Notes under the pieces: generated by a model
Database searches by the model: none
What the model saw: only the letters and a program-made list of their open reading frames with translations
Told to the model about the DNA's origin: nothing
Origin: Mactromeris polynyma
Taxonomy: Eukaryota; Mollusca; Bivalvia; Venerida; Mactridae
DNA length: 64,000 nt
Direction of reading: 5' to 3'
Assembly (NCBI GenBank): GCA_032209605.1
Contig: JASFXZ010000016.1
Span: 13,206,001 to 13,270,000 of the forward strand
In this document: piece by piece, positions 2,612 through 61,370 of the stretch
Position numbering within the stretch: the stretch's first letter is position 1
How the letters are laid out: every line of letters begins with the position of its first letter
Translations under genes and position numbers: made by a program

Positions 2612-2732
2612 GTTTGAAATGTTTCTGTGAGGATATCGATGAACGGTGTGACGAAGACAAAGTTTGTGAGACAGATGGAGCATGCTACACCGCGGTACGC
2701 CGAGATGAGGGAGAAATTATCTACAAGTTTAG
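2612..2732 (+). CDS. TGFBR1: Receptor exon 2: first half of ligand-binding ectodomain
   Basis: Reads [12 protein letters not shown]...[11 protein letters not shown]...IIYKF. The CFC and C-x-TDG-x-C spacing is that of activin-receptor ectodomains. The acceptor is the AG at 2610-2611 and the donor the GT at 2733. The exon starts in phase 1 and leaves two bases, so it needs a following exon that supplies one base. Both alternative exons do so, each completing a serine codon. Confidence 0.92.
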
Positions 2733-5700
2733 GTAAAAATGTTTAATTTTGGTAAAAAAAAAAATGGCTAAAGTTTAATATTTCTTGCATAATTGGTATT
2801 TAATCTAGAAATGAACTCAAAAATCTGTACACTGTTTTGGCAATATTTATTATAATTTCAGTGATTTTTTTTGTTCAATTTGACTGCCAAATTTTGGCTG
2901 TTTCCCTTAGCAACAAAGTGTCATTTTCTCCTAAAAAAGTAAAAAAAAAAAAATTAATGACTTCTTTACCATCCTGAAAAGAGCACTTTGAGATGAAAGA
3001 GGGAAGAATAATAATACATTCAGCAAATGCAGGAAATTAACACATTTGTAAGTAAAATAACCGTGCTCTTATTTTCCCAAATATGGGACTTATCGCGCAT
3101 ATTTTTCCCAATTGAAAAGGCACAGGCAGTAAAATTATTTTCATAAAAAATCACTGATTGGTATTTAATCTAGAAATGAATTCAAAAACTTTAAATCACT
3201 ACACACTGCTTTGGCAATATTAATCATAATTTATATGCAATGTGTACATTATTGTTATTGGCTCATCAATGAGCTTTGCCAACTGATTAATTGGCATAAT
3301 AAGTCCAATCTGTTTCAAGCACTACCTGTCGATATCGACCATGTGCCAACAACAACTGTTGGTTTTCCCACATTATATTAGCTCTGTTACAACTTGCAAA
3401 TCAAGGGCTCAACGCAACACTGTCGTAACTACTATGTATTCTTATAGGAGTTACGACAGTGTTGCGTTGAGCCCTCGAAATATCGAGATTCTGTTTACTA
3501 TGACTACTGACTGCAATTGTCTGATTGACGGCTTCACAGCGGTTGATAGTGACTACATGTAGGCAAAATATTGATGTGTGAAGACAAAAGACATCATGGG
3601 CATTCAATACTGTAAATCACCTTATTTTCGAAACAACTTAATTTTTGCGTTCATTCCCGAATCCAGAGACTGGTGTATTTTTGCGTTTATTCCTGAATCC
3701 AGAGACTGATGTATTTTTGCGTTCATTCCCGAATCCAGAGACTGGTGTATTTTTGCGTTCAATCTCAAATCCAGAGACTGGTGTATTTTTGCGTTCAATC
3801 CCGAATCCAGAGACTGGTGTATTTTTGCGTTCAATCTCAAATCCAGAGACTGGTGTATTTTTGCGTTCAATCTCAAATCCAGAGACTGGTGTATTTTTTT
3901 GCGTTCAATCCCGAACCCAGAGACTGGTGTATTTTTGCGTATTCAGCTAGAATTTAAGGGTCAAAATGTGGCTCAACTCCTAGGTCAAATGGAACCTCTG
4001 TCTTGGCAAGACTTTCGCAAAAAATTTAATTATGCGAAAAATAAAGTGATTTACAGTTTTCAATAGAAATCATGTTTGTTGTGATATGTGTGAGAACTGT
4101 ATAAAACTGTATACAGTCAAACCTGTCTGTAAAGACCACCCATGGGAACAGCAAAATGTGGTCTTTGTTTACTGGTGGTCTCTATTTAATAACAGATTAA
4201 ATATCATTGAAAATGGTCTGATGGGAGATAAAATTGGTTTGACTGTATATATATATGAATTGTGGCTTTAATATTGAATTTATCTTGCTTGATATTAATT
4301 GTCCCTGGTCCCAGACCAAAAACACACAAGTAAAGTTAAACACATTAAATTTAAAATAAACAATTCATTATTTCTGTCAATAGTGACAGTGGCGGATGTC
4401 AATCGATGGTTATTGATTTTTGTGTTTACAGCTGATTTTTTTCAGTTTTTAGGGAAGTATTGCGGATCACCAAATTTTGGTACTCCTAAGGCTAAAATTT
4501 TAAATAACTTGACTGAAGGGAGATTTTATTTCAAAGTAGTGGGAAAGATATATATACTTTTTTCTTTCGGTGAAAAATCGGCCACAAATTTACTACAAAA
4601 TTTAATTAAGTATATTTAATTGATAGCAAAACAACTGTAGTTTTGTTTGTAATGATCACACTTGTAAAACTGGGAAAATTTTATGATATATTGATAATTT
4701 ATTTTATTTGACAGCTGTATTAGCAATGCCAACAGTTTGACACCTGGAGCTCCTTATTTGTGTCAGAATAGAAGAGTTGTGTCCCTTGAATTTGCCGAAT
4801 GTTGCTATGAAGACCTTTGTAATAAAAATCTATCGCCTAAACTCATTACATCAACTGTTTACATGGGTATATGGAAATTTCATTTGTGGCCCTGCTATTA
4901 ATACCAATATATATATGTGTATTCATCTCTTGCAATGTTGCACTGTGCACTTTAAGCATACATACCTCCGTCCACCAGGTTAGGACATTGGACTGCTATG
5001 GTAGGGGTTCAAATACTGACCAGTATCTTTAAAAGACGAGGCTTGCATATTGCTGATTAGTTTTACTATCAAATAAAAACACACTGCTTTTTACCCAAAT
5101 TGAACAACCGGTTGATTTATACTTGCACCTGGCACAGAACAACCGGTCAGTTTATACTAGCACTGACACTGTACATCTGGTCGAATAATACTAGCACCTG
5201 GCACAGAACAACCGGTCAGTTTATACTAGCCCTGACACAGAACAACCTGTCAGTTTATACTAGCTGCTGGCACATAACAATCAGTCACTTTATTTTAGCA
5301 CCTGCCATGGAACGACCGGTCAGTTCTCACCGCCACCAGGCACAGAAGAACTGGTCAATCTATGATGGCACTCTCTCTATGCATGGAAGTTTACAGTATT
5401 TAAACCATGATTGTGATGATATAAACTGATTACAACTCGGCTAATCTCATTTTAAGCACAAACTCTTTCAAAACCTCGAGGTCTGAATATGGTTGTTGTT
5501 GTTGTAGTATTAAGAAGTACATTTTTTAAGTCACGTGCTATAAACTTGTCACTTTTACATCATCACTGGTGGACAGGTTCTCGAGGCTAAGATAAAATAT
5601 AATTTTTTTGAATAAATTTTAGCTGCAAACCAAAGTACATGTTAGTACCTGTAGGTAAACCGTTCGTATGTCAGACATCGGCGAACGTGGATTCGGAGAC

Positions 5701-8700
5701 ATCTGTTGAATGTTGTTATTCTGATATGTGCAACATGAGATTGAAACCCACCATGGCGTCTCCCAAAGCACCAGGTTAGTAAAATTAATATTTCTCTGGG
5801 TTTTTCTTTAATTGTCAGTTTCTGGTACCCCTATCGACCCTCCGAAATTGGGCCCGGCTCATCACATATATTGTCAATTTCCATTTTTCCTGAAATGAAA
5901 TCAGCTGAAAATTCGACAAGGGGTCCTGGACCCCTTGTCGAATTTTCAGCTGATTTGAAATTTTGCGTTCTCATGCCTGTTGTCTCTAGGATTTAATTTG
6001 AAGTATTTTTGTGATATTAGGGACTGGTATAAATATGTGAATTTTGTTCGATTAAAAAAATTCCCTGTTGTGTAAAAAATATATAAAACAATGGATTCTT
6101 TGAATTTCTAAAATATTTTGTTCACTCATTTAAAATCATACATGTATTTGGTTTTCCAGAAATTGCAATATGTTTTTCTTGTTTCTTTCAGAAAATGTTT
6201 AAAATGCCGATGTAAATTGTTTTCAATTCTAATAGCCGAACTTCATGATAATTTATTTGCACGAATCCTTCCTTCAACCATTCTATGAGGTCACAAACCC
6301 GAGTTTCATCTCCGTCACAGGATTGATACAAATCTGCTTAAACCCGACATAAATACCCCTGTTTCGCTGTCATTCTGTGATTGATGATTCCGGTTGGTGC
6401 TGGGGGTGATGTAGCGTTACCTTAAGAGGTGCAGCCAACATTAGGGGTTCCAATAGGAGCTGAATATCAGGGGTCATTTTAATAATTTTTAACAGGATTT
6501 TACCATTTATAGTCGAATTACCAATAATTTAGAGAAAATGGATCAACTCCAGGGTCAAATAGAATTTAGCAGAATCCTCTCGATAGGATAAAGAAACAGT
6601 TGTGATTTTAAAGACTGAAAGATTTTCTGGCATCTTCATTAGGACCTGTCCCTTTCATTATTAATGAGTAACTTTGTATTGTATCTCAAGGAGATTAAAC
6701 TCAAGGTTGTTGCCATAGAAACCAAACAGGATTATCGTTACCCTCAGCAGTGACCCAAATACATTCTGATACCATCCTCTGTACCCAGGCTATGCAAAAC
6801 ATATATATGATACCCTGGGGCAAACTGACTGTAAATATCTAGTACTCATGAATAATTAATGAGGTGAAATCCAGCTGCTTGATTGGCTGCATGACACACA
6901 CCAAATGCAATATGGAAATTGCCGAGGAGTTACGGATAAAATCATGTTTCAGAGCGATCCAATGATTTCTATAGCTCTTCACAAAAGAGATTCTTTCTTT
7001 TTTGTTATCGTCCATTTAATTGGTCGAGAAATGCTAATGAATATTCATGCATTACAAAGTTTCGCTAGCCAATTTTCCTTGGATATCATATATGTTATGA
7101 ATAGCCTGGGTACCGAGGATGTCCGCTACAACCGAAGCACATTCTTGTATATCGTGTACAAACACTTATATACAATGAGAAAACACACCCCCAGCTTGAG
7201 CAATGTATTATTTAAGCAATAGGATAATAAGAGTGGTCATTGAAATACCAACTTGTAATAACCTCTAATTTTTTGAATTTTTTTTAAAGCCTTCATTTTA
7301 TCTGAACAACCTACAAAAAACTGTAATTCAACCTTTTGAGAAAACACTTTATAGTCTGTTATGTCAAATTTTCACCGGGCAATACTCAACGTTATACATA
7401 AGGTCATACTGTGTTTTATTTTGTTAAGCATCTACCTTGCTTCGCAAAACCTACCACTCGAAAAATCGCACACAATCGTTGTGAAATAATGTGAAACCAG
7501 ATAGATAATGTAAACATGATCAAAATTTAACTTAGCAACTTTAGAAGTCTTACAGAAAAACCGACTAGTTTTTACTCACTATTTTCAAACATGCAAATTA
7601 ACAAAAGATTTACAAAAAGATTCTAAATACAACACAGCAGTTACTTCCCTTGGCAAATATTTAAATTTACGAAAATGTTTTGTTTTTTTTTGCTCCAAAA
7701 GCTCAAAACCAAGACGCACGCGGATGCTTAACAACAATACAAAACTGCACGGCCTTACGTCGCTAATACTGGGCCAGGGATAATAATGGATACTTGCACT
7801 CCCGCACTCAAATCACGAAATTTACTCTAATAAGTCCTATATTGAAAATTTGCGTTTGGAAAATGCATGAACATGTCAAATGAGATCTGAAAAACCTTTT
7901 TGGCTTGTTTTTTTGGAGGTTTTATGGTAATTGAGAAATATAGGAATAATTATTGGGTCTGAGTGCCACACTCCACACTCAGACTTAATAATTACTCCAA
8001 GATCTAATATTCCACTCAAATACTTAAGAAAATTGGCCTCACAGAATATTCAGCTCTTTTCACACGCAATATGAGTCACTGTGACTATCAGACTCGGTAA
8101 AGTAAATTTTGTGTTTTGAGTGCTGAGTTTAAGTATCTGATATAACTCCGGGCACACTGGTGTTGTCGTGGAAAGACTCGCACATTTTTTTAGCAGCTAT
8201 AACTGTAATGGTCGATATGGTCCTCTTTTCAGCTAACGTTCTCTGTTTTTGTGCCAATAATTGTGAAAAACAAGTTTTCTAGCTTTGTCAGATATGTGAA
8301 AACTTGTTAACGATATGTGAAAACTTGTTAACGATATGTGAAAACTTGTTAACGATATGTGAAAACTTGTTAACATTATTCACGGTTATTGTCTATTGGG
8401 AGTTGTGGAAAAAGTCCTCCATGTTGTTAATGAGCATTCCCATCCCCTGATAATGTAGCATTGACACACTGTCAAAACATGTTTTATAAGACAGACTAGT
8501 TAGTGGACCAGTAATCCGAAGACCCGGGTTCGAATCCCAGTGGCGCCATTGAATCCGAAGACCCGGGTTCGAATCCCAGTGGCGCCATTGACTGATTTTT
8601 TGTGTTCTTCAAAAACATGATTTTATGTAGTATTTAGATATGTTATACTATACAGTTTTATTAAATATGTTAGATTTTAACTATTAGATATTTTGTATTA

Positions 8701-11700
8701 TAACTAAGGATGTCAACGAATGGCCATTTTGGTATTCGAATATTTCACCTTCTTATAGATGTAACACCAATATATTTATGCTTATCAATTTTGTGTTTTA
8801 AATTGATCACTCAAGTGGTAAAAATCCTCGCGATTACTGATAATTTCAGGGTCTAAGTGTCATCACCAGAGTGTTATGACTCTGTGTCTCTTGTCAATTA
8901 ACACCTGTAGATATTATTTTTCACGTTTGGAATGACATTCAATGCCATGATGCCCTTCATTGAAATTTAATACACTTGCATTCAGCTTTTATATTGAAAA
9001 TATATATTTTATCGAATATTCGAATTCTGAATCAGTATTCGAATATTCGGACGTACAAACAAATATTCGAATATTCGTTGACTTCCCTAATTATAACTAC
9101 ATGTATTAATTATGTTATATTATATAAATCATGTTATTTTATAATAGAACTAGGAAAATAATATGATCGGATTATTGATGCAAATATTCCCTGGAAGAAA
9201 GTTGTAAACTTTTATTTTTAGCTGAAGAAGACAACGGGAAGACCGAATTTGGAATCTGGGAGCTTGTCGCTATAACGGCGGGGCCGGTTGTTGTGATATG
9301 TGCCCTCTTTGTCACCGGTTTCATCTTGTATCATAAATATCAAAATAAGGCTCGTCCACCCTTCAATCCGGTTGAACCGAATCCCATTGATACGCCACTG
9401 TTACCGGACGGTCAGCCGAGCACTCTCACTGAAATGATGTTTGAGTACTCTGGATCCGGTTCAGGTAAGAACACCGATATTTTATACAGTCAACCCTCGT
9501 TACACCGACATCGGTTACAACTGAGTATTCATTTAACGACACAAAATCCGGTGGGAAAGTATCAGCTTAAAGTTAAAGAGTCAATGAATAAATTTGTTTG
9601 TTTGTTTCATCGGGTTTAACGCCGTTTCTCAACGATATTTCAGTTATATACGGCGGCCGGTTCACCTAACCAGTTTTTCCTGGACTTAATTCTAACCAGT
9701 ACTAACTAATAACTTACCCTTCCACAAGGAGCCGGCAACTTCTCCAACATTTTTGTCAAATTTTCATGGAAGGGTATAACCTGCCTCAACCGGGAATCAA
9801 ACCCGGATCACCGGGTTACAAGTCCAGCGCACTAACCACTGGACCACTTGTCGTTACTAGTTTGGGACGTCGTGCTAGTGGATTTCTGGAGCCCTGGGCT
9901 CACAGGATTTGCATAATATATCTAACCGCCTAACTTGTCGGGTAAAAACTCATAAGGTCTTGTAAAAATCAGAAATGTTACGATTTTCAGAGAAAGCAAT
10001 ATTCCTCGGTCTGTTTAAGGCTGGGCCTATTTATTGAACACGGGACAAAAAAATCGAACTGTGTGTGTTGAATTAATCACCATTTTTATTTGTTCCATCA
10101 TTTCAGGTCTACCATTGTTAGTGCAGAGAACAATCGCTCGACAGATACAGCTAGTTGAGATCCTGGGTAAAGGTCGGTATGGGGAGGTTTGGATGGGAAA
10201 GTGGAAAGGTGAGAGCGTGGCGGTAAAAATCTTCTCATCTCGTGACGAGAGGTCGTGGTTCCGGGAAGCCGAGATATACCAGACCGTGATGTTACGTCAC
10301 GAAAATATCCTTGGGTTCATTGCTGCAGATAATAAAGGTATATTTCGACGAATCAGAGCAGATGTTTTTGAAAGGAATTTTATAATAATTGCGATTAAGG
10401 CCATCGTTAAATTTGAACTTTTTTACATTTATCGTAAAACACGCTCTTCATCATGCAGTTATCAATCTCAATGTATAGTTTTATGTTTCACTATGGTATC
10501 AGTCCATGTGTTGGATAGAATGTCTGACTGTGAAGACGGTGAAAGAATTTTGCCCATGGCTGTATTCGAACCATGGACGCCAGTCAAGGGTCCAGAATTA
10601 TAACAGATACTTACTCTCGTCACTCAAATCTCTCGTTCATATGAGTCCGATACTCATATGTAGTGTGAAAATGTATAATAATGTTAAATGAGTCCTGAAT
10701 ATTTTTTGTGGCCCATTTCCTTACAGATTTGAGTGTAATATGAGGTCTTGGAGTAATTATGGAATCTGAGTGCAGGGTGTGTCACTAAAATCCATGAATT
10801 ACTCCCATATCCTAAAATTGCACTAAAATCTCAAAGAAAATGAGCCACAAACGATATCCAGCACTCTGTTGATATTTTAATGCATTTTTCACACTTAAAA
10901 ATCCACTGTCAGACTAATACAGAGTATATTTTGTGATTTAAGATTTATTACCCTAAGTAAGCTCATTAGTAGTTAATTACTAGGGATGTAAACAATTAAC
11001 CGGTTAACAGATTAAACATGCAGTTATCAGTTAGTAAAATCACTAACCGATTAATCGTTTATTTTTATAAAAGCATCTACTTTTCATGTTTGAAAAAATC
11101 GAAAATTTAATTGTTGTTTGTTTCAAATGACAGTCGGAAAATTCTTTGGGTGTTCGAGAACTAAGGCATATCTATCGATTTAAATAGACAGATAAATGAT
11201 GTTTTATTGTACTGAATTTTTGTGTTTTAACATTGCTGTATTTAAATATATTGCAACTGTCTGTTAAATTAAATGTGATATGGAATACTTCAATTTATCA
11301 AATATCAAATTATAGTGTTTGAAATAAAAAATGATATTTCCTTAAAATAATTGAAATGTTTGATATTTCTTTTTGTTTTTAAGATTTATGTTCTGTACTT
11401 AGCAGAAACAAACACTATCCGAACTAGTACTTGCGTCAGAATAAAGGTCTAGTCATAATAAAAAATGCACATGACACAACATGTAAAGAATGCCATGTTC
11501 GGTTAACCGTTTAATCTTCCGGTTTGCAAAATAACCGAATATTGACATCCCTATTACTAACACATTATCATTCACAGACAATGGTACTTGGACTCAGTTA
11601 TGGCTGGTCACTGACCACCACGAGCAAGGATCGTTGTACGATTACCTGAATAGAACACCTGTAAGTCCTCAAGCTATGATAAAGATGGCCAAGTCTATCG

Positions 11701-14700
11701 CTTGTGGCCTTGCCCATCTACATACGGAAATTATGGGTACACAAGGTACGTATAACAAGGTTGGCCAGGTCTTGAAAAGTCCTTGAATGTCTACTCTTTG
11801 AGAACTTCTTGAATTTGTAACAGCTAAATTTCCTTTTTGAAAACTTCTTGAATTTTTAACAGCTAAAAACTCTTTGAAAACTTCTTGAATTTGTAACAGC
11901 TAAAAACTCTTTGAGAACTTCTTGAATTTGTAACAGCTAAATACTCTTTGAGAACTTCTTGAATTTGTAACAGCTAAATACTCTTTGAGAACTTCTTGAA
12001 TTTGTAACAGCTAAAAACTCTTTGAGAACTTTTTGAATTTGTAACAGCTAAATACCTTTTGAGAACTTCTTGAATTTGTAACAGCTAAAAACTCTTTGAG
12101 AACTTCTTGAATTTGTAACAGCTAAATACTCTTTGAGAACTTCTTGAATTTGTAACAGCTAAATACTCTTTGAGAACTTCTTGAATTTGTAACAGCTAAA
12201 TACTCTTTGAGAACTTCTTGAATTTGTAACAGCTAAATACTCTTTGAGAACTTCTTGAATTTGTAACAGCTAAATACTCTTTGAGAACTTCTTGAATTTG
12301 TAACAGCTAAATACTCTTTGAGAACTTCTTGAATTTGTAACAGCTAAATACTCTTTGAGAATTTCTTGAATTTGTAACAGCTAAAAACTCTTTGAGAACT
12401 TCTTGAATTTGTAACAGCTAAATACTCTTTGAGAACTTCTTGAATTTGTAACAGCTAAATACTCTTTGAGAACTTCTTGAATTTGTAACAGCTAAAAACT
12501 CCTTGAAAACTTCTTGAATTTGTAACAGCTAAAAACTCTTTGAAAAGTACTTGAATTTGTAACAGCTAAAAACTCTTTGAAAAGTACTGGAATTGTGAAA
12601 AAAATGAATAACTGTTTTGTAAATTGCCCTTGAATTCTTCTGCTGCGAATAGAAAAAGGAATAAGAAATAACAAACGGACTAACAATAACGAAAAAATGA
12701 CAGAGCTATCTTTGACAGGGTACTAGGCGAAAGTATGATAGTACAGTACAGTACTGTACTCAACGGACTTTATACCCGTTTAAAAAATGTTCATGTTGTG
12801 TAATGATTTCCATGCAGTGATATGGTCATCTCAGGGGGGAGGGGGGAGGGGGGAGGGGGTGTTAAACTTGAAAAATACACTGGACCCTTTCTTCTCTATA
12901 CCGAAAAAATAAACATTTTTAGTCCTTGAAAATGGGGAAAAGGTACTTGAAAAGTACATGATTTTTTTCAGGAAGTTCTGTATGAACCACCTTATATGCT
13001 TACAGGACTACAGATAGCCTTTAGGAACTGATGCCCTAGGGGGCTGAATCTCGAGGGTCATTTTGATATTTTTTAACTGGATTTTACCATTTTAAACCCA
13101 AAAAATCTATAATTCAGAGACAAATTTACTAATCACCCAGAATCCTTAGGGTCAAAAAGGGGATTTTTGGTAATTCCAGGTGTCAAAGGGTCAACTCAAG
13201 GTTCAAATGGAATCCCTGCCCATACCCACAATGGGGGAATTTGTGTCCTTAAAAGTGAAAACTAGAAATTTTAAACCAATCTTACAATATCAATTTATAC
13301 TGTTTTTCATCGATTACTACAAAAAATTTTTAATAGATTAGTATTTTTGACAAAGATTGTTGTGTGTTGATTAATCGTATAAGTATTCATAATGAATATT
13401 TCGAAATTCAATCATAAATCTTAAATAAAACCAACTTCGTCTAGCATTTTAAAACAATTTTGTGTAGAGTGTTAAAGATGAGAATCTATTATAGAATCAA
13501 CTATTCGAATACCTTATCAGTACTTGCATATTTGGACATTGATTCGAATACAAGTTGAACTCCCTATGACAATTTCAGGAAAACCTGCCATTGCTCACCG
13601 AGACTTGAAAAGCAAAAATATCCTGGTGAAAAGTAACGGCCAATGTTGCATTGCTGACTTAGGTAAGTTGATTATAGTTATTTTATACCTGGCTATACTC
13701 TCCAGGGTTGAGTATTTTCCTCTTTTCACAAGGTTCGCACAGGTCTTGAAAAGTCCTTGAATTTGATGCCTAGTGCTTGAAAACAGCTTGAATTTGTAAC
13801 AGCCAAAAACTCCTTGAAAAGTACTTCAATTTTGCCAGTACTGGAATCGGATGTGTCGACATTTGGATATGTCGACATATTTTATCAGGTCCCTGTAATG
13901 TCGACATAACGGGTTTCGACTGTATAACTTACAGAAAAAAAGGAGTTAATAGTCTATTAAAGCAGTTTAAAAATATAATAAATGTCGGTCTGATGCAAAA
14001 AATATCTTGCGTACAGTTGTATATGGATTCCAATGTAACTTCATTAGCATAATCTCCATGAAGTGTAGATGTGTGACTGTATTTTGGAGGCAGGTCCCTC
14101 TCATGCACAATAATGTTTTTGCTATTAAATATATGTCTTCATAGGGTCTATGCTTAAACCACGTGATTTAACACTTTTACTTCAGGTCTTGCTGTGAGGC
14201 ATGATTCGGCTAAAGATGCCGTTGACATAGCGCCGAATAATCGTGTCGGCACGAAGAGATATATGGCACCAGAGGTACTGGATGAAACAATTAACATGAA
14301 TCATTTTGAGTCTTTCAAGAGAGCAGATGTGTATTCGTTCGGCCTTGTGTTATGGGAGATCGCCAGGAGATGTTCTAGTGGAGGTAAGTAACAGAGTCTG
14401 AACGTAAAGAGCATTCGTTGAACTACAACTTTGAGTCATCCCCAGAATGTTCTTCAAGCACTGGGATAGGAGTAGGGAAGTTTTTAGGTTACAAAAAGGG
14501 AAGTGTCCTCCCTCCTTTTAGAGATTTTATTTATTACAACCTTATAAAATTTAGTGGTGGTTCCTTATGGGATTTGTTTGGAAAACAATCTATATGTCAT
14601 TATTTACAAGGTTCGCACTGTCTTGAAAAGTCCTTGAATTTGAAGCCTACTCCTTGAAAAATACTTGAATTTGTAACAGCCAAAAACTCCTTAAAAAGTA

Positions 14701-17271
14701 CTTGAATTTTGAAAAAAAACAAAAATTTGGTAAATTGCCCTTAAATTCTTCTGCTGCGGATAGAAAAGGATAACAAACAGACAAACAAACAATGATGAAA
14801 GAAATGTGAAAAAATGACAGCTATTTTCCACTGTATGGTTATACAGTACGGCAGGTGGCTGGTTTTATGCCCTCAAAATTTTTAGTCCTTGAAAATGGGG
14901 GAAAAGTATTTAAAAAGTACTTGAATTTTTTTCGGGAAGTTCTGTATGAACCATGATTTACATAAACCAGGATTTATTTTCGGAAGGTGACTCATACCCT
15001 TCAAGTTGGGATTTTTTGCGCGTTAATCTTAGAAATTTGGGAAATGACTCACAATTACAGAAAAATGTAAGGAATAAAAGTAAAGATTGTAGTGATTTAT
15101 TAATTGACAATTGCTGTATGTATTTATATAAACTGCTGTGAGAGAAAAGCCTTCTGAGAATATTCAAGTGCTGTGGAATCTTTCATTATGAAACTCTGGT
15201 GCAATGTTTTTACGTGCCAAATTTCTGCACTCCTAATTGAAGTTTTGATCTTGGGAAATATAGTCTAATACAGTAAACTATAACTAAAGAGCAAAACAGT
15301 GAAAATGGGACTTGAAAATTGTGTTCTTTATTTCGAGGTGGTCTTATTACTGAGGTGGTCTTTGAGTGAGGTTTTACTGTATTTAACAGTTTAAAAACAG
15401 GTGTGATTGAGGTAATGGTAAGATCGTACGTTCAGTGTTGTTATCCAACTTCATTGCGATTATTGTTCCAAATCACATTACGCTGGGAAACATCAAAGGT
15501 CCGGCACTCATTCTGGCTACTTCACTTAGGCCAAATAAGAAAATTCTTTGTTTGCCCTTTACCGACCCTAGATTTAAGAGGTGGGTAGGTAGGTAGTAAA
15601 AATATTTTATTGTACTGTGGACATTTTTATTGAACACATACAATGTAGTCGTATAGCAGAATTGAAGTGTTTTGATCTCTTTATATGATTTAACCCCAAA
15701 GTAGCGCCACAATCAAATCAAGGACGCGATACTAAACTAAACAAATTTTTAGGAATACAATTTATTGAGTCGGCGGCCAAATCTCAGGTCGGATCGGTAA
15801 AGGGCAAACAAACTAAATTTTAATTTAGGCTTAATTTGTACACGTTTTTTTCGATGAAACGTATCTGTATTTGTGTTTCAGGTATCTATGAGGATTATCA
15901 GCAGCCGTACTATAACATGGTACCACCAGACCCCTACCTTGAGGAGATGAAGAAAGTGGTGTGTATAGAAAAACGGCGTCCTGACATACCCAACAGATGG
16001 CAGAGCCAGGAGGTAATTTTCAAAACATTATTTCAAATATGATTTTTTGTTGTATTGGGGCTTTAAGTCTCATGAACAGCCAGGAGGGTCATGTTTGTTT
16101 GTTTGTTTCATCGGGTTTAACGCCGTTTCTCAACGATATTTCAGTTATATACGGCGGCCGGTTCACCTAACCAGTTTTTCCTGGACTGCATTCTAACCAG
16201 TACTAACTTACCCTTCCACAAGGAGCCGGCAACTTCTCCACATGTGGAGGAAAATCGACATTTTTGTCAAATTTTCATGGAAGGGTATGACCTGCCGCAA
16301 CCGGGAATAGAACCCGGATCATAGGGTTACAAGTCCAGCGCACTAACCACTGGACCACGGCCGCGGCTTAGGAGGGTCATGTAGTGATTATTCCAGCTAT
16401 TAGAAAGAAATGCAAAAAGAGAATCAGGAGAGGTTGCTCATTAGTTTTTGTTAACATGATTACAGTAAAGTGTTAAACTGTGTATTAAATCCTGATGATT
16501 GATTTATGAGGAAGCAAGGTGGCTACCTTGGTTCCAACCCAATACCTCCGGTTAGAGCGGCCTTCTCATTGCTCCACTAAACCAGCACTGTCTCGTTACT
16601 CGTAGCAAATGTTTGATACTCTAAAATCAGAAATTTTTGAGATGGATTAATTTTCCCTATGTTAACAAAAATAAATGTTTACTAAATATTGGTGTGTTAA
16701 TTTTACGACAATGCTGAACATATAAATACACAAACATATAACGCTGTTAAACAACATGGTAACTTCAATGGATAGTTCGCAGATCTACAATAATTGCCTC
16801 CATTGTTTTCAATCATGAGACTTTTTGATAGGCAAAACTGATCAGCACAGAAGTAAAAAAAATGTGATAATTGAGAAAATACGAAGAATATTTGCATGTG
16901 ACAAGCACTCAGTCTTCAACTTTCTGAGCCATGTGTCCACATGAGCATACTGATCTGATTATTTTATCATTGTTTACATTATATTCCCCATTAACTTCAA
17001 AGAAATTTGCATATCAGAATGGCTGACTATTCAGAACAAGGGAGGTAAATATCGTAAATGTAGAAACTAGCTTTTGATGAAATTTTAGCCTCGAAAATTT
17101 TTGCAGGCATTACGAGTAATGGCAAGAATTATGAAGGAATGTTTTTACCATAATGCGGCGGCACGTCTCACAGCCCTGCGTATTAAAAAGACTCTGAGTA
17201 GTTTGAATTCTCAAAGCGACGTTAAAATGATCACGGAAACAGGAATAGAGCCTATCATGTCGAATATTTGA
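2612..17271 (+). CDS. TGFBR1: TGF-beta/activin type I receptor kinase (ALK4/5/7, Baboon class), multi-exon gene lacking its first exon
   Basis: Single-pass membrane serine/threonine kinase that pairs with a type II receptor, binds TGF-beta/activin-type ligands and phosphorylates R-SMADs. Exons: 2612-2732, then either 4715-4866 or 5623-5774, then 9222-9464, 10107-10337, 11578-11745, 13579-13662, 14186-14383, 15882-16012 and 17107-17271. All junctions are GT-AG and phases agree throughout. The product has a cysteine-rich ectodomain ending in a CCY-x-D-x-CN motif, one membrane segment, a GS box (SGSGSG then [12 protein letters not shown]), a glycine loop GKGRYGEVW, the lysine in VAVKIF, catalytic HRDLKSKN, and ADLG in place of DFG, as is usual for type I receptors. 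The L45 loop reads NKDNGTWT, which marks the activin/TGF-beta (SMAD2/3) branch rather than the BMP branch. The window encodes 497 residues; full-length human ALK5 has 503, so only a signal-peptide exon seems to be missing. I found no convincing first exon between 1 and 2611. Confidence 0.96.
3404..3475. mobile_element. 72-bp near-perfect palindromic element, copy 1
   Basis: Two 27-bp arms (3404-3430 and 3449-3475) starting AGGGCTCAACGCAACACTGT pair perfectly around an 18-bp loop. A second copy lies at 40492-40563. Confidence 0.85.
3641..3942. repeat. 36-bp minisatellite, about 8 copies
   Basis: Units begin ATTTTTGCGTTCAATC and continue CCGAATCCAGAGACTGGTGT. Because 36 is a multiple of three, open frames run through both strands; these are not genes. 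Confidence 0.92.
4112..4247. mobile_element. Pogo/Tigger-like miniature element
   Basis: Ends TACAGTCAAACC and GGTTTGACTGTA are inverse copies at TA sites, 136 bp apart. CAGTCAAACC-type ends are typical of pogo-related elements. Confidence 0.65.
4715..4866 (+). CDS. TGFBR1: Receptor alternative exon 3A: second half of ectodomain
   Basis: 152 nt encoding [17 protein letters not shown]...[18 protein letters not shown] and a short stalk. Acceptor AG at 4713-4714; donor ATGG|GTATAT at 4867. The donor was chosen because it restores the phase needed by 9222 and gives exactly the length of exon 3B. The conserved CCY-x-D-x-CN end of the three-finger fold is present. An N-glycosylation sequon (NLS) occurs here but not in exon 3B. 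It lacks the VPxGKPF stretch that exon 3B shares with vertebrate ALK4, so it is the more divergent version. Confidence 0.88.
5099..5370. repeat. 35-bp minisatellite between the two alternative receptor exons
   Basis: About seven diverged copies of a unit containing ACCTGGCACAGAACAACCGG and TCAGTTTATACTAGC. Confidence 0.88.
5623..5774 (+). CDS. TGFBR1: Receptor alternative exon 3B: second half of ectodomain
   Basis: 152 nt encoding [18 protein letters not shown]...[16 protein letters not shown] and a stalk. Acceptor AG at 5621-5622; donor CCAG|GTTAGT at 5775. Its VPVGKPFVC segment resembles the VPAGKPFYC of vertebrate ALK4, so this is probably the ancestral-like version. Its start phase, end phase and length are identical to exon 3A 756 bp upstream. 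Including both or neither would shift the reading frame. Confidence 0.92.
5898..5956. repeat. Perfect palindrome with 29-bp arms and a 1-bp centre
   Basis: Arm 5898-5926 (AAATCAGCTGAAAATTCGAC then AAGGGGTCC) is matched exactly by 5928-5956. The right arm continues into a repeat with ends like those at 18508-18663 and 55432-55585, so it appears to be an inverted duplication of part of that element. It lies 123 bp after alternative exon 3B. Confidence 0.9.
6430..6590 (+). repeat. Dispersed GGGGTTCC...GGGTCAA repeat, copy
   Basis: Shares AGGGGTCATTTTRATAATTT, GATTTTACCATTT and AATTTAGAGAAAA with copies at about 13030-13240, 42989-43190 (inverted) and 49063-49258. A truncated end is at about 3957-4002. 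Confidence 0.6.
6773..7122. mobile_element. CATCCTCGGTACCCAGG inverted-repeat element, copy 1
   Basis: Long imperfect terminal repeats: GTACCCAGGCTATG...CATATATATGATACCC on the left and GATATCATATATGTTATGAA...CCTGGGTACCGAGGATG on the right. The open frame inside is not a gene, as other copies at 20898-21275 and 55855-56208 do not preserve it. Confidence 0.8.
7780..8150. repeat. Inverted-repeat-rich dispersed sequence
   Basis: Contains GGGTCTGAGTGCCACACTCC, CAGACTTAATAATTACTCC and CACTCAAAT/TTTGAGTGC motifs in opposite orientations. A related arrangement is seen at about 10610-10970. Confidence 0.45.
8291..8374. repeat. Four exact copies of a 21-bp unit
   Basis: GATATGTGAAAACTTGTTAAC (split here as GATATGTGAAAA + CTTGTTAAC) repeats four times without a mismatch, so the expansion is recent. 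Confidence 0.95.
8513..8590 (+). repeat. Duplicated tRNA-like 3' half (SINE fragment)
   Basis: A 39-bp unit containing a B-box-like GGGTTCGAATCCCAG occurs twice. No matching 5' half or acceptor stem is present, so it is not a tRNA gene. Confidence 0.75.
8706..9090. mobile_element. hAT-type miniature element with 8-bp target duplication
   Basis: Ends AAGGATGTCAACGAAT and ATTCGTTGACTTCCCTAA are inverted, and TTATAACT flanks both sides (8698-8705 and 9091-9098). The 8-bp duplication is the hAT signature. Related ends occur at 10982-11553 and 59697. Confidence 0.85.
9222..9464 (+). CDS. TGFBR1: Receptor exon 4: stalk, transmembrane segment, start of GS domain
   Basis: Encodes [13 protein letters not shown], then a hydrophobic segment of about 22 residues ([16 protein letters not shown] onward to ILY), a basic juxtamembrane HKYQNKAR, a proline-rich linker and the first part of the GS box (EYSGSGS). 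Acceptor AG at 9220-9221, donor TCAG|GTAAGA at 9465. It joins either alternative exon in phase 1, completing an alanine codon. Confidence 0.94.
9595..9852 (-). mobile_element. tRNA-derived SINE, minus strand, copy 1
   Basis: The minus strand reads a tRNA-like head (GGTCCAGTGGTTAGTGCG, then GGGTTTGATTCCCGG) and a tail containing ACGGCGTTAAACCCGATG and AAACAAACAAAC. A second copy at 16091-16366 shares nearly the whole length. The tail resembles SINEs common in bivalves. Confidence 0.85.
10107..10337 (+). CDS. TGFBR1: Receptor exon 5: end of GS box and kinase N-lobe
   Basis: Encodes [19 protein letters not shown], the glycine-rich loop [11 protein letters not shown], the ATP-binding lysine in VAVKIF, the alpha-C glutamate in FREAEIYQT and [15 protein letters not shown]. 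The LP in GLPLL is the FKBP12-docking position of type I receptors. Acceptor AG at 10105-10106, donor AAAG|GTATAT at 10338. An open frame continues into the intron but has no similarity to anything. Confidence 0.95.
10982..11553. mobile_element. hAT-like element of about 570 bp
   Basis: Starts TAGGGATGTAAACAATTAAC and ends with the inverse of TAGGGATGTCAATATTCGG. ATTACT is found on both sides as a possible target duplication. No transposase frame. Confidence 0.72.
11578..11745 (+). CDS. TGFBR1: Receptor exon 6: L45 loop and hinge
   Basis: Encodes [29 protein letters not shown] and [15 protein letters not shown]. With the preceding NK it completes the L45 loop NKDNGTWT, which in vertebrates and flies selects SMAD2/3-type substrates. 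Acceptor AG at 11576-11577, donor CAAG|GTACGT at 11746. Confidence 0.95.
11790..12600. repeat. 37-bp minisatellite, about 21 copies
   Basis: Unit CTCTTTGAGAACTTCTTGAA + TTTGTAACAGCTAAATA. Middle copies are almost identical and outer copies diverged, the pattern of unequal crossing-over. Located in the receptor intron between exons 6 and 7. Confidence 0.95.
12834..12859 (+). other. G-quadruplex-forming tract
   Basis: Four runs of five or six G separated by single A residues (G6-A-G6-A-G6-A-G5). It lies on the sense strand of the receptor intron. Confidence 0.85.
13579..13662 (+). CDS. TGFBR1: Receptor exon 7: catalytic loop
   Basis: Encodes [20 protein letters not shown] and [15 protein letters not shown] is the catalytic loop. 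ADLG, completed across the junction, replaces the usual DFG, as in known type I receptors. Acceptor AG at 13577-13578, donor TTAG|GTAAGT at 13663. At 84 nt it is the smallest exon of the gene. Confidence 0.95.
14186..14383 (+). CDS. TGFBR1: Receptor exon 8: activation segment
   Basis: Encodes [53 protein letters not shown] and [20 protein letters not shown] is the P+1 loop of the receptor kinase family. Acceptor AG at 14184-14185, donor GGAG|GTAAGT at 14384. Confidence 0.95.
14610..14952. mobile_element. GGTTCxxACAG inverted-repeat element, compact copy
   Basis: Left end AAGGTTCGCACTGTCTTGAA and right end TTCTGTATGAACC are imperfect inverse copies. The interior holds CCTTGAAAAATACTTGAATT. 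A truncated third copy is at about 13728-13840. Confidence 0.7.
15269..15382. mobile_element. TACAGTAAA-type miniature element
   Basis: Ends TACAGTAAAC and GTTTTACTGTA are inverse copies at TA. Relatives with GAGGTGGTCTT motifs lie at about 21459-21617 and 46252-46433. Confidence 0.6.
15882..16012 (+). CDS. TGFBR1: Receptor exon 9: kinase C-lobe
   Basis: Encodes [33 protein letters not shown] and [10 protein letters not shown]. Acceptor AG at 15880-15881, donor GGAG|GTAATT at 16013. This is the only junction in the gene that falls between codons (phase 0). Confidence 0.94.
16091..16366 (-). mobile_element. tRNA-derived SINE, minus strand, copy 2
   Basis: Near-identical in layout to 9595-9852, with the tRNA-like head at about 16282-16360 (minus strand) and an AAACAAACAAAC tail. 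It includes an extra segment around CTCCACATGTGGAGG that copy 1 lacks. Confidence 0.85.
16758..17072 (-). mobile_element. GATAGTTCCC inverted-repeat element, copy upstream of last receptor exon
   Basis: Opens GGATAGTTCGCAGATCTACA and closes AACAAGGGAGGTAAATATCG; the interior matches the other copies in reverse. It stops about 35 bp before the last-exon acceptor. Confidence 0.75.
17107..17271 (+). CDS. TGFBR1: Receptor last exon: end of kinase domain and stop
   Basis: Encodes [40 protein letters not shown] and a short tail ending MSNI, with stop TGA at 17269-17271. The kinase ends at the usual place. The tail is slightly longer than in vertebrate ALK5, which ends soon after the matching lysine-methionine. 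Acceptor AG at 17105-17106, about 35 bp after the end of a dispersed inverted-repeat element. Confidence 0.94.
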
Positions 17272-40738: not shown

Positions 40739-40844
40739 TCCAACTCGGGACAACAGTTTTGACTGTTACCCAAATAACCATGAAATAACTGTATACTCAT
40801 AACACATAGTATTTCAACGTTTATCATATTAAATTAAAAAATTG

Positions 40845-41282
40845 CAACATTTTGCCCTTTCATCGCAACATATTGCTACATTTTGCCCTTTCATCGCAAC
40901 ATATTGCTACATTTTGCCCTTTCATCGCAACATTTTGCTACATTTTGCCCTTTCATCGCAACATTTTGCTACATTTTGCCCTTTCATCGCAACATTTTGC
41001 TACATTTTGCCCTTTCATCGCAACATATTGCTACATTTTGCCCTTTCATCGCAACATATTGCTACATTTTGCCCTTTCATCGCAACATTTTGCTACATTT
41101 TGCCCTTTCATCGCAACATTTTGCTACATTTTGCCCTTTCATCGCAACATATTGCTACATTTTGCCCTTTCATCGCAACATTTTGCTACATTTTGCCCTT
41201 TCATCGCAACATATTGCTACATTTTGCCCTTTCATCGCAACATTTTGCTACATTTTGCCCACGAATCGCAACATTTTTCTAC
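40845..41282. repeat. 31-bp minisatellite, about 14 copies
   Basis: Unit ATTTTGCCCTTTCATCGCAA + CATATTGCTAC, with a second type having CATTTTGCTAC. As 31 is not divisible by three, open frames cycle through all three frames; not genes. Confidence 0.95.
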
Positions 41283-41574
41283 ATTACGCATTTTAGGCAC
41301 TTGCTAAAATTCACTCGATTTACATTTTGTTCGTATTAGTCGTATTTTGTTCAATTTAGCCCCATTTCGACCGCAAAATTATGGCCCTTTACTGTGGCTT
41401 TACTCCATAAAATAGCGGTAACACAAAAGAAAATTGTGCATGTGCATTATTATATTACTTCTACACTTGTAAACACCAAAAACACTTATAACTATCGCAG
41501 AAAGTCTGGAGAAATTATTCAACAAATAGATATACTATTAAAATGTTTGTGATGGCAGGAGTCTCTACTTTGTT

Positions 41575-56209: not shown

Positions 56210-57890
56210 TAGTATGATAAGTGACCTGGTTTTTAATGGAGGAAGATTTGAGAGTGATTCAAATACGCAAAATGCTTTCGTCACATTTGAGCCTAAGTAA
56301 GGTTGATATTTTCACAGAAAATAAAACCCTAATATCAAGTTGCATTGTTTCAGGCCACTGCACCAGTGCTGTTTTCTATTGTGAAGCTGTTTTTATGACA
56401 GATCTAATAGACGATACTATAGGAGCCTGTTATATACATGTATTGTAATGGTTCTGTTTATATATACAATTTTATCCATGTGGATATTTTATTTGATTTA
56501 ATCAATTATGTTAAGAGGTTATTAAACTTAAAATTAAAATAACTGCTTTTTGTTTTTTTTATTTGGATTCAAAACTACAACAGTATGAATGAATTGGATT
56601 CATGAATCAAGAAGTTTACAAATCAGAAATGTTTCCGCAAGGCCACTCCTTTTTTATTTATTGGATTACAAAATCTTTTTTTTAAAAATGTCCAATGGGT
56701 GGTCGAAAAAAAAACACAAAAAAACACAACATTTAAAATACAGCCACTTAATTATACTGTATAATTAACAAACATGCAACGGAGAAACCAGTCATGGTGA
56801 ATGACTTCCAAGACTTGTCAGGCATTTCTTGTCAGACCGAATGCAAACTCGTCAGACCGAAAACATGTTAAAAATTGCATTCTTCGTTTTGTGAGATAAA
56901 GTAAAAATACAGTATACTATTACATTCAGCATACATGCATTCATGCATAAAATGTGACTTGTTAAGCAAAGGGGCCTGTAAGAATATCAATACCATTTTT
57001 ATTCAGTTCTGTACCATTTCACATTTTCTACATAATTATAAATAACCTATTGTAAATTCAAGGGGAGTAACACGCAAAATTGCGAATAATTAGCTATTGA
57101 CTGTGACAATTTGTGAGATCAACAAGTATTAGGAATGTTATATGATTCACACGGATGCTGAATAATACGTGTGTCCTAACCTGTTCGTTGACCTAATTTA
57201 GGTCACAGAAAATTCCTACTTTCGTTTTGATATCTAAAAATAGACTACTTTCGGTTTAGAAAATCGTCGATATCAAACTAATAGAAAGTCTTTTCATGAA
57301 ATGAGATGCAATTCTGGTGGTTTGAAACTACCGTGTAACTATCGGAGGCGGGAAGAAACAATAGGTCATCCCGCTTTTATGCCACGATACGTCAGTATCG
57401 CTATTTAAGCACAGCTACGACCGAATCAGAGTTTTAATATAAGAAGTAATTATACATTAATGAGCTGTTGAAGATGCAATGTGTCACCATGATACTAGTT
57501 TATCACACATTTAATTAGAAAACTACAAGATATATACGATGCATAGACGTGTTCTGTTCATACCCGCGCAATTTTCGTCTGCAACTTCATTAAGTATAGT
57601 CAGGTTTATTTCCGACATTCTGTTTTATGAAACATTTGGTCTACAGCATTGTTTTTGCAAGTCTAAACTAAAGATTAATGTCAACTTAGATCTCATGAGA
57701 AGTTGTCACGAGAGTGAGAGAACTCGCTGATGTTTGAACTTCGAATATCTTGTGACCTCAATGGTATCACTTCAGATGCTCTGGAGTTGGATAAGTGAAC
57801 GAGTACATTTTTGAATAGCTCTAGATGTCTCACAAATTTAAACACGTATGTCTGCGTCTACCTGAGCCAAAGTGTGTCAACCTGGTACAC
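56210..57890. other. Intergenic sequence with a possible TATA-like site
   Basis: No coding sequence is supported. CTATTTAAGCACAGC at about 57402 could be a core-promoter element, but no convincing exon follows. Confidence 0.3.
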
Positions 57891-59420
57891 CTATTAGAGC
57901 CTGTGTAAAGTAGCGTTACATGTGTCATTGTACACGTACCAGTGTCACCCTTCCTCAACCGATGGTAAACCTGTGAGACCCTGTGTAAAGTAGCGTTACA
58001 TGTGTCATTGTACACGTACCAGTGTCATCCTTCCTCAACCAATGGTAAACCAGTGAGGCCCTGTGTAAAGCAGCGTTACATGTGTCATTGTACACGTACC
58101 AGTGTCATCCTTCCTCAACCAATGGTAAACCTGTGAGGCCCTGTGTAAAGCAGCGTTACATGTGTCATTGTACACGTACCAGTGTCATCCTTCCTCAACC
58201 AATGGTAAACCTGTGAGACCCTGTGTAAAGTAGCGTTACATGTGTCATTGTACACGTACCAGTGTCACCCTTCCTCAACCAATGGTAAACCTGTGAGACC
58301 TTGTGTAAAGCAGAGTTACATGTTTCATTGTACACGTACCCGTGTCATTCTTCCTCAACCAATGGTAAACCAGTGAGACCCTGTGTAAAGCAGCGTTACA
58401 TGTGTCATTGTACACGTACCAGTGTCATCATTCCTCAACCGATGGTAAACCTGCGAGAACCTGTGTAAAGCAGCGTTACATGTGTCATTGTACACGTACC
58501 AGTGTCACCCTTCCTCAACCAATGGTAAACCTGTGAGGCCCTGTGTAAAGCAGCGTTACATGTGTCATTGTACACGTACCAGTGTCACCCTTCCTCAACC
58601 AATGGTAAACCTGTGAGACCCTGTGTAAAGCAGCGTTACGTGTGTCATTGTACACGTACCAGTGTCATCCTTCCCGAACCAATGGTAAACCTGTGAGAAC
58701 CTGTGTAAAGCAGCGTTACATGTGTCATTGTACACGTACCAGTGTCATCCTTCCCCAACCGATGGTAAACCTGTGAGACACTGTGTAAAGCAGCGTTACA
58801 TGTGTCATTGTACACGTACCAGTGTCATCCTTCCCCAACCGATGGTAAACCTGTGAGACCCTGTGTAAAGCAGCGTTACATGTGTCATTGTACACGTACC
58901 AGTGTCACCCTTCCTCAACCGATGGTAAACCTGTGAGACCCTGTGTAAAGCAGCATTACATGTGTCATTGTAAACGTACCAGTGTCATCCTTCCTCAACC
59001 GATGGTAAACCTGTGAGGCCCTGTGTAAAGCAGCGTTACATGTGTCATTGTACACGTACCAGTGTCATCCTTCCTCAACCAATGGTAAACCTGTGAGACC
59101 CTGTGTAAAGCAGCATTACATGTGTCATTGTACACGTACCAGTGTCACCCTTCCTCAACCAATGGTAAACCTGTGAGACCCTGTGTAAAGCAGCGTTACA
59201 TGTGTCATTGTACATGTACCAGTGTCATCCTGCCTCAACCGATGGTAAACCAGTGAGACCCTGTGTAAAGCAGCGTTACATGTGTCATTGTACACGTACC
59301 AGTGTCATCCTGCCTCAACCTATGGTAAACCTGTGAGACCCCTGTGTAAAGCAGCGTTACATGTGTCATTGTACACGTACGTACCAGTGTCATCCTTCCT
59401 CAACCGACGGTAAACCTGTG
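57885..59420. repeat. 80-bp satellite, 19 copies
   Basis: Unit CTGTGTAAAGCAGCGTTACA + TGTGTCATTGTACACGTACC + AGTGTCATCCTTCCTCAACC + AATGGTAAACCTGTGAGACC. The period is exactly 80 from 57901 to 59340, then broken by a 1-bp insertion and an ACGT duplication in the last copy. Confidence 0.97.
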
Positions 59421-60399: not shown

Positions 60400-61370
60400 G
60401 TTATGAGGTGCGAAGTGTTGCGATGAGCGGTGCGGTAAGATGCGGAACGTTGAGGTGTGGAGCGTTGCTGTTAGGTGCGGTGCGAAGTGTGATGTGATGA
60501 GCGGTGCGGTAAGATGCGGAACGTTGAGGTGTGGAGCATTGCTGTGAGGTGCGGTGCGAAGTGTGCTGCGATGAGCGGTGCGGTAAGATGCTGAACGTTG
60601 AGGTGTGGAGCATTGCTGTGAGGTGCGGTGCGAAGTGTGCTGCGATGAGCGGTGCGGTAAGATGCGGAACGTTGAGGTGTGGAGCGTTGCTGTGAGGTGC
60701 GGTGCGAAGTGTGCTGCGGTGAGCGGTGCGGTAAGATGCTGAACGTTGAGCTGTGGAGCGTTGCTGTTATGTGCGGTGCGAACCGTGCTGTGATGAGCGG
60801 AACGTTGAGGTGTGGAGCGGTGCTATGAGGTGCGGTGCGAAGCGTGATGTGATGAGCGGAACGTTGAGGTGTGGAGCGGTGCTATGAGGTGCGATGTGTA
60901 GCGTGCTGTGATGAGCGGAACGTTGAGGTGTGGCGCGTTGCTATGAGGTGCGGTGCGTAGCGTGCTGTGATGAGCGGAACGTTGAGGTGTGGCGCGTTGC
61001 TTTAGGTGCGGTGCGTAGCGTGCTGTGATGACCGGAACGTTGAGGTGTGGCGCGTTGCTATGATGTGCGATGCGTAGCGTGCTGTAATGAGCGGAACGTT
61101 GATGTGTGGAGCGGTGCTGTGAGATGCGGTGCGTAGCGTGGTGTGAGGTGCGGAACGTTGCTCATGTGTAGAGCGTTACTATGACATGCCGTGAGTAGCG
61201 TGGTGTGAGACGCGGAACGTTGCTGAGGTGTGGAGCGTTGCTATGAGGTGCAGTGCGTAGCGTGCTTTGATGAGCTGAACGTAGAGGTATGGAGCGTTGC
61301 TATGAGGTGCGTTGCGAAGCGTGCTGTGAAGTGTGGTGCAGTGAGGTGCGGAACGGTGAAGTGTCGAGCT
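60400..61370. repeat. G-rich, CpG-rich tandem array with 74-bp and 59-bp units
   Basis: Units begin GATGAGCGGTGCGGTAAGAT at 60422, 60496, 60570, 60644 and 60718 (74 bp). From 60792 they begin GATGAGCGGAACGTTGAGG and recur at 60851, 60910 and 60969 (59 bp), then degrade. Confidence 0.93.

Follow-up and report, generated by a model that had tools for sequence, protein, structure and literature searches.

A receptor kinase gene of the clam Mactromeris polynyma very probably makes two receptors from one kinase by choosing between two mutually exclusive exons, each encoding the second half of the ectodomain, and the two forms would serve different ligands. The gene lies on contig JASFXZ010000016.1 (assembly GCA_032209605.1), part of a 793-Mb genome, within the stretch of 64,000 nucleotides at positions 13,206,001 to 13,270,000 that was analysed here and that we call the window; its plus strand carries, at 2612-17271, exons 2-10 of a Ser/Thr kinase receptor of type I. 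Most probably the two exons form an ancient mutually exclusive pair and correspond, on the lophotrochozoan side, to exon 4 of Drosophila babo.

The alternative exons, 3A (4715-4866) and 3B (5623-5774), hereafter A and B, share a length of 152 nt, have AG before and GT after them, begin in phase 2 and end in phase 1. They stand between exon 2 (2612-2732, 121 nt), a constitutive exon that encodes the first half of the ectodomain and ends TTT AG in phase 2, and exon 4 (9222-9464, 243 nt), which encodes the juxtamembrane and transmembrane segments and the start of the GS box; exons 2 and 4 were placed by splice sites and frame, and A and B by frame, Pfam, a profile hidden Markov model (HMM) and relatives. 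A ends in CCYEDLCN and B in CCYSDMCN, and the two second halves are 37% identical and keep the same five cysteines. Exon 2 joined through either A or B to exon 4 is open, whereas A followed by B, B followed by A, or neither of them leads to a stop. Because both exons or neither give an early stop, a kinase is made only by mRNAs carrying one of them; the reading frame, at the least, keeps the two exclusive. An earlier note on this DNA had described two adjacent 152-nt exons with matching phases, a common CCY-x-D-x-CN ending and a frame that admits one exon at a time, and on each of these points, coordinates included, our analysis agrees with it.

The pair is more than a chance find in this region. 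Between exons 2 and 4 there are 73 stop-free segments of 90-240 nt bounded by AG and GT in the right phase, and the full cysteine pattern occurs in two of them, A and B. The second-half profile HMM recovered B at E 2.1e-16 and A at E 2.6e-11, values that are flattered by a training set including both window exons, with the next open reading frame of the window at 0.17; the first-half HMM gave 50 bits on exon 2, its own training set including the window's first half. Joined to the shared first half, A scores 39.1 bits and B 48.0 bits against Pfam Activin_recp (cut-off 20.9). A six-frame motif scan of the window found no third copy. Genome-wide protein searches, which score best candidates only, returned B itself, A (E 0.0012) and one match at the level of noise (E 5.9) when B was the query, and A and B only (B at E 4.1e-4) when A was. 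Given these searches and the 37% identity, the locus appears to be a single gene carrying the two exons rather than two genes or an assembly duplicate.

By its sequence the gene encodes an ALK4/5/7 (Baboon-type) receptor, as had been proposed. The best solved kinase match of the spliced protein is TGFBR1 (E 4.7e-176), Pfam Activin_recp and TGF_beta_GS both exceed their cut-offs, and the L45 loop reads ADNKDNGTW, given as the motif of the TGF-beta type I branch in a scallop paper (PMC3510168). The closest protein among the matches listed is from Mactra antiquata, at 88% over residues 1-250. A kinase search of the genome gave identities of up to 100% on the window's contig and 44-67% for the best exon matches on other contigs, and among the best candidates scored this appears to be the sole ALK4/5/7-type kinase. 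Three other type I-like loci (C231, C289 and C253), whose genes were fetched in part, contain one CC..CN stretch each; the match to the second-half profile starts no earlier than position 14 in C231 and position 15 in C289, and the exons of these two seem to be cut at other places.

Both forms recur in other bivalves. Three protein searches, covering 2 of 2 matches in one and the best 120 in each of the others (out of 3594 and 3593), yielded 159 distinct proteins from a database clustered at 90%; because such clustering may merge isoforms that differ in this exon alone, pairs are probably undercounted. Among the matches listed, A-form second halves occur in Ruditapes, Mercenaria and Dreissena, every record being labelled 'isoform X2', and B-form second halves in Mactra, Mya, two sequences without a species name and, less surely, Sinohyriopsis; no X1 partners of the clam 'isoform X2' records appeared among these matches. 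The A second half is 70, 68 and 62% identical to those of Ruditapes, Mercenaria and Dreissena, where the constitutive exon 2 reaches 56, 51 and 46%. The B second half is 71% identical in Mactra (exon 2, 77%) and 61% in Mya (exon 2, 46%). Dreissena and Mya belong to Myida, Mactra and Mercenaria to Venerida; with A and B forms distributed over both orders, both probably predate the split between them.

The same switch point is found well beyond clams. We collected pairs of proteins with first halves at least 90% identical, membrane and GS segments more than 80% identical and second halves less than 60% identical, and obtained 12 isoform-like pairs, the window's own included. Four come each from a single named species (Schistocerca, Ischnura, Cephus and Diaphorina, the second Diaphorina record holding both modules); three join a named record to a sequence without a species name, with first-half, second-half and membrane identities of 100/26/100 in Crassostrea gigas, 100/40/100 in Dermacentor silvarum and 97/41/97 in Cryptotermes; four further, weaker pairs join different species. 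Each of the 12 shows 0-2 differences in the first half and starts to diverge 0-3 residues past the junction residue, which is R or S in each of the 11 pairs displayed. The oyster's S versus R at this residue would be expected of a shared phase-2 boundary falling after AG. The 'lgn' contigs among these sequences are probably transcript assemblies, since they measure 1.6-6.4 kb and yet encode whole receptors. The comparison with Baboon drawn in the earlier note thus holds at the protein level, the clam switch lying within 3 residues of that of the insect isoforms and the insect and tick pairs parting just past the window's boundary. Among proteins, both forms are seen in other clams, each in separate species, and the switch point between two forms is seen in oyster, tick and insects.

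The remainder of the gene, all on the plus strand, comprises exon 5 (10107-10337, 231 nt; GS box and kinase N-lobe, Pfam TGF_beta_GS 47.6 bits), exon 6 (11578-11745, 168 nt; kinase, completing the L45 loop), exon 7 (13579-13662, 84 nt; kinase, HRDLKSKN loop), exon 8 (14186-14383, 198 nt; kinase), exon 9 (15882-16012, 131 nt; kinase) and exon 10 (17107-17271; kinase C-lobe up to a TGA stop, read from the sequence). Twelve combinations of candidate splice sites are open, and the donors of exon 6 (from two) and exon 8 (from three) were picked by likeness to relatives. A search for RNA pairing gave 39 inverted-repeat pairs (25 displayed), the best of which are local hairpins; AT-rich partial long-range matches also occur, for example 5591-5616 with 8988-9013 (77%), as seen in one genome. 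Near-perfect inverted repeats at 3401-3478, before A, and 5898-5956, after B (arms of 35 and 29 nt, spacers of 8 and 1 nt), form hairpins like those of miniature inverted-repeat transposable elements. Receptor introns also hold minisatellites at 3641-3940, 5102-5357, 8291-8374 and 11792-12594, with units of 36, 35, 21 and 37 bp, and the introns concerned include both that flank A and one after B. A tRNA-like match lies within intron 9 (16293-16364, minus strand; Rfam tRNA, 33.5 bits), and tRNA-like sequence resembling a short interspersed nuclear element was noticed by eye near 9600-9860. Elsewhere in the window, a 31-bp repeat array at 40842-41285 (14.3 copies) is open in all three forward frames (152-168 codons), and large arrays occupy 57883-59420 and 60407-61329, with 80-bp units (19.2 copies) and 59- and 74-bp units.

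The closest known system is that of Drosophila, where babo exons 4a, 4b and 4c are mutually exclusive (PMC7371420) and the suggested pairings are Myo with A, Act-beta with B and Daw with C (PMC12124520). As in the clam gene, the exclusive exons of baboon encode the ligand-binding domain of a type I receptor of the activin branch (PMC12124520, PMC7371420, PMC11195991), and the Cys box falls within the alternative exon (PMC12124520). The likeness is at the protein level, with no assignment of A or B to BaboA, BaboB or BaboC individually; the fly has three copies and the clam two, and ligand pairings are known for the fly only. Sequences of two different fly species, Glossina brevipalpis and G. 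fuscipes, part two residues past the window's boundary. A babo-a forward primer that translates to GFCFTSV, in the first half (PMC7371420), suggested that fly exon 4 encodes the whole ectodomain; we set this aside because the primer may sit in a common exon, the Cys box is in exon 4 (PMC12124520) and the fly sequences diverge at the window's boundary. Among bivalves, Tgfbr1 of Crassostrea gigas and Chlamys farreri has 10 exons, GT-AG introns and the L45 loop ADNKDNGTW (PMC3510168), and the clam model likewise needs 10, counting 3A and 3B once and adding an exon 1 that was not found. The Chlamys farreri paper describes one form, the word 'alternative' being absent from its main text (PMC3510168), while the oyster sequences comprise two forms, one named and one without a species name. 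Among the open-licence papers listed, no title or abstract opening describes such exons in molluscs or ticks; in the papers covered, Drosophila is the animal with described Baboon isoforms, and the Nasonia and Tribolium papers searched contain no mention of isoforms. Vertebrate TGFBR1 and ACVR1B resemble the clam protein in kinase, GS box and three-finger ectodomain, and the vertebrate ectodomain probably lies within one exon. Bivalve Tgfbr1 has one exon more than the mammalian gene, 10 against 9 (PMC3510168); human expressed sequence tags revealed no extra exon, and one variant, expressed weakly, adds 4 residues (PMC2075524). Exclusive babo exons in the fly and isoform names in bivalve records are thus known already; a common origin is the interesting question.

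We give even chances to the pair being real but having arisen in molluscs independently of arthropods, a history compatible with one gene offering two exclusive ectodomain halves to one kinase. Parallel duplication would hit the exon where an altered ligand fit pays, and independent duplications within exon clusters are reported for myosin genes (PMC5740500). In a quickly built tree of 52 second halves from molluscs and arthropods, all 28 mollusc rows fell on one side of a branch (97), and support was 80 for clam A plus B and 82 for the arthropod second form; the copies number three in Drosophila and two in the window. In a first tree, built from 65 second halves hand-chosen from 161 rows and including other phyla, the four A rows group together (100/97), and a second branch (95/90) holds five of the six B rows. 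Independent origin is opposed by the small number of columns (45 in the first tree) and by the position of clam A in that tree, where it groups with pteriomorph bivalves and vertebrates (95/77), apart from B. The two trees disagree on the placement of clam A. Forcing clam A together with the arthropod second form, a grouping chosen once the first tree had been inspected, cost 1.04 log units (p-AU, from the approximately unbiased test, 0.479), so a common origin of the two survives. The exon boundary common to oyster, tick and insects argues for a shared exon, though it is no proof of a shared duplication. Tentatively, the ligand-choice exon switch of activin-class type I receptors may have been present in the ancestor of molluscs and arthropods and been retained, protostomes coping with several activin-class ligands through the splicing of one receptor and vertebrates through additional receptor genes (ALK4, ALK5, ALK7); if so, clam A and B would bind different ligands in different tissues.

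With either history, one gene with two exclusive halves would yield two receptors that have the first ectodomain half, membrane span and kinase in common and differ in the second ectodomain half. Most likely the two forms would allow one Smad2/3-type kinase to respond to distinct activin-class ligands from tissue to tissue, like BaboA, BaboB and BaboC in Drosophila; we infer the splicing in the clam, the ligand preference and the tissue control. The PRDRP pre-helix extension of ALK5 touches TGF-beta and TbetaRII (PMC9163516), and alignment with solved ectodomains places this turn within the alternative exon. At the turn, the B segment resembles the LVPAGKPFYC of ALK4, and the net charge of the Cys-to-Cys segment is 0 in A and +3 in B; from the likeness at the turn and the charge, B is the more conventional form and A a derived one. 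We infer that A and B may differ in ligand or partner preference.

Several observations weigh against this explanation. No credible match to exon 1, the signal-peptide exon, was found in 1-2611 or in the 20 kb upstream. No named bivalve species is represented, among the matches listed, by two named records that cover both forms. B is less conserved in Mactra than exon 2, so that strong conservation is shown for A, not for B. A fits solved ectodomains less well than B (33.8 versus 46 bits at best) and might serve something other than ligand choice. Finally, both modules stand in one protein in six arthropod records, and exclusivity may not be absolute everywhere. These last records bear on the idea that an alternative splice site yields a third form carrying the two modules one after the other, which we consider unlikely in the clam. 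Two CC(3-6)CN modules precede the GS box in 7 of the 159 proteins: one from Diaphorina (P0037), three from Cataglyphis (P0067), Monomorium (P0135) and Apis florea (P0155), two from barnacles (P0083, P0088) and a seventh, from Hippocampus, in which the whole ectodomain is repeated. The direct join of A to B shifts the frame and stops, however, and the tandem records may be gene-model artefacts. The linker WLPPHVR is common to the Cataglyphis, Monomorium and Apis florea records, which may represent either a true isoform that includes both modules or a gene-model artefact common to the three. It is very improbable that one member of the pair, A being the likelier, is a duplicate in decay or out of use: A does score below B on the family profile, but it is open, has B's five cysteines, exceeds exon 2 in conservation in three other genera, and its relatives' A-form records are annotated as receptor isoforms.

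With the same switch point in bivalves, ticks and many insects, the fly's device becomes a candidate ancestral protostome route to ligand choice, and what has been known chiefly as a fruit-fly switch appears to be older and more widely distributed. Studies of bivalve 'Tgfbr1' may have mixed two receptors. A natural swap experiment is offered by the pairs from clam and oyster, in which one kinase carries two alternative ectodomain halves. The shared switch point also makes testable how a single kinase serves several ligands.

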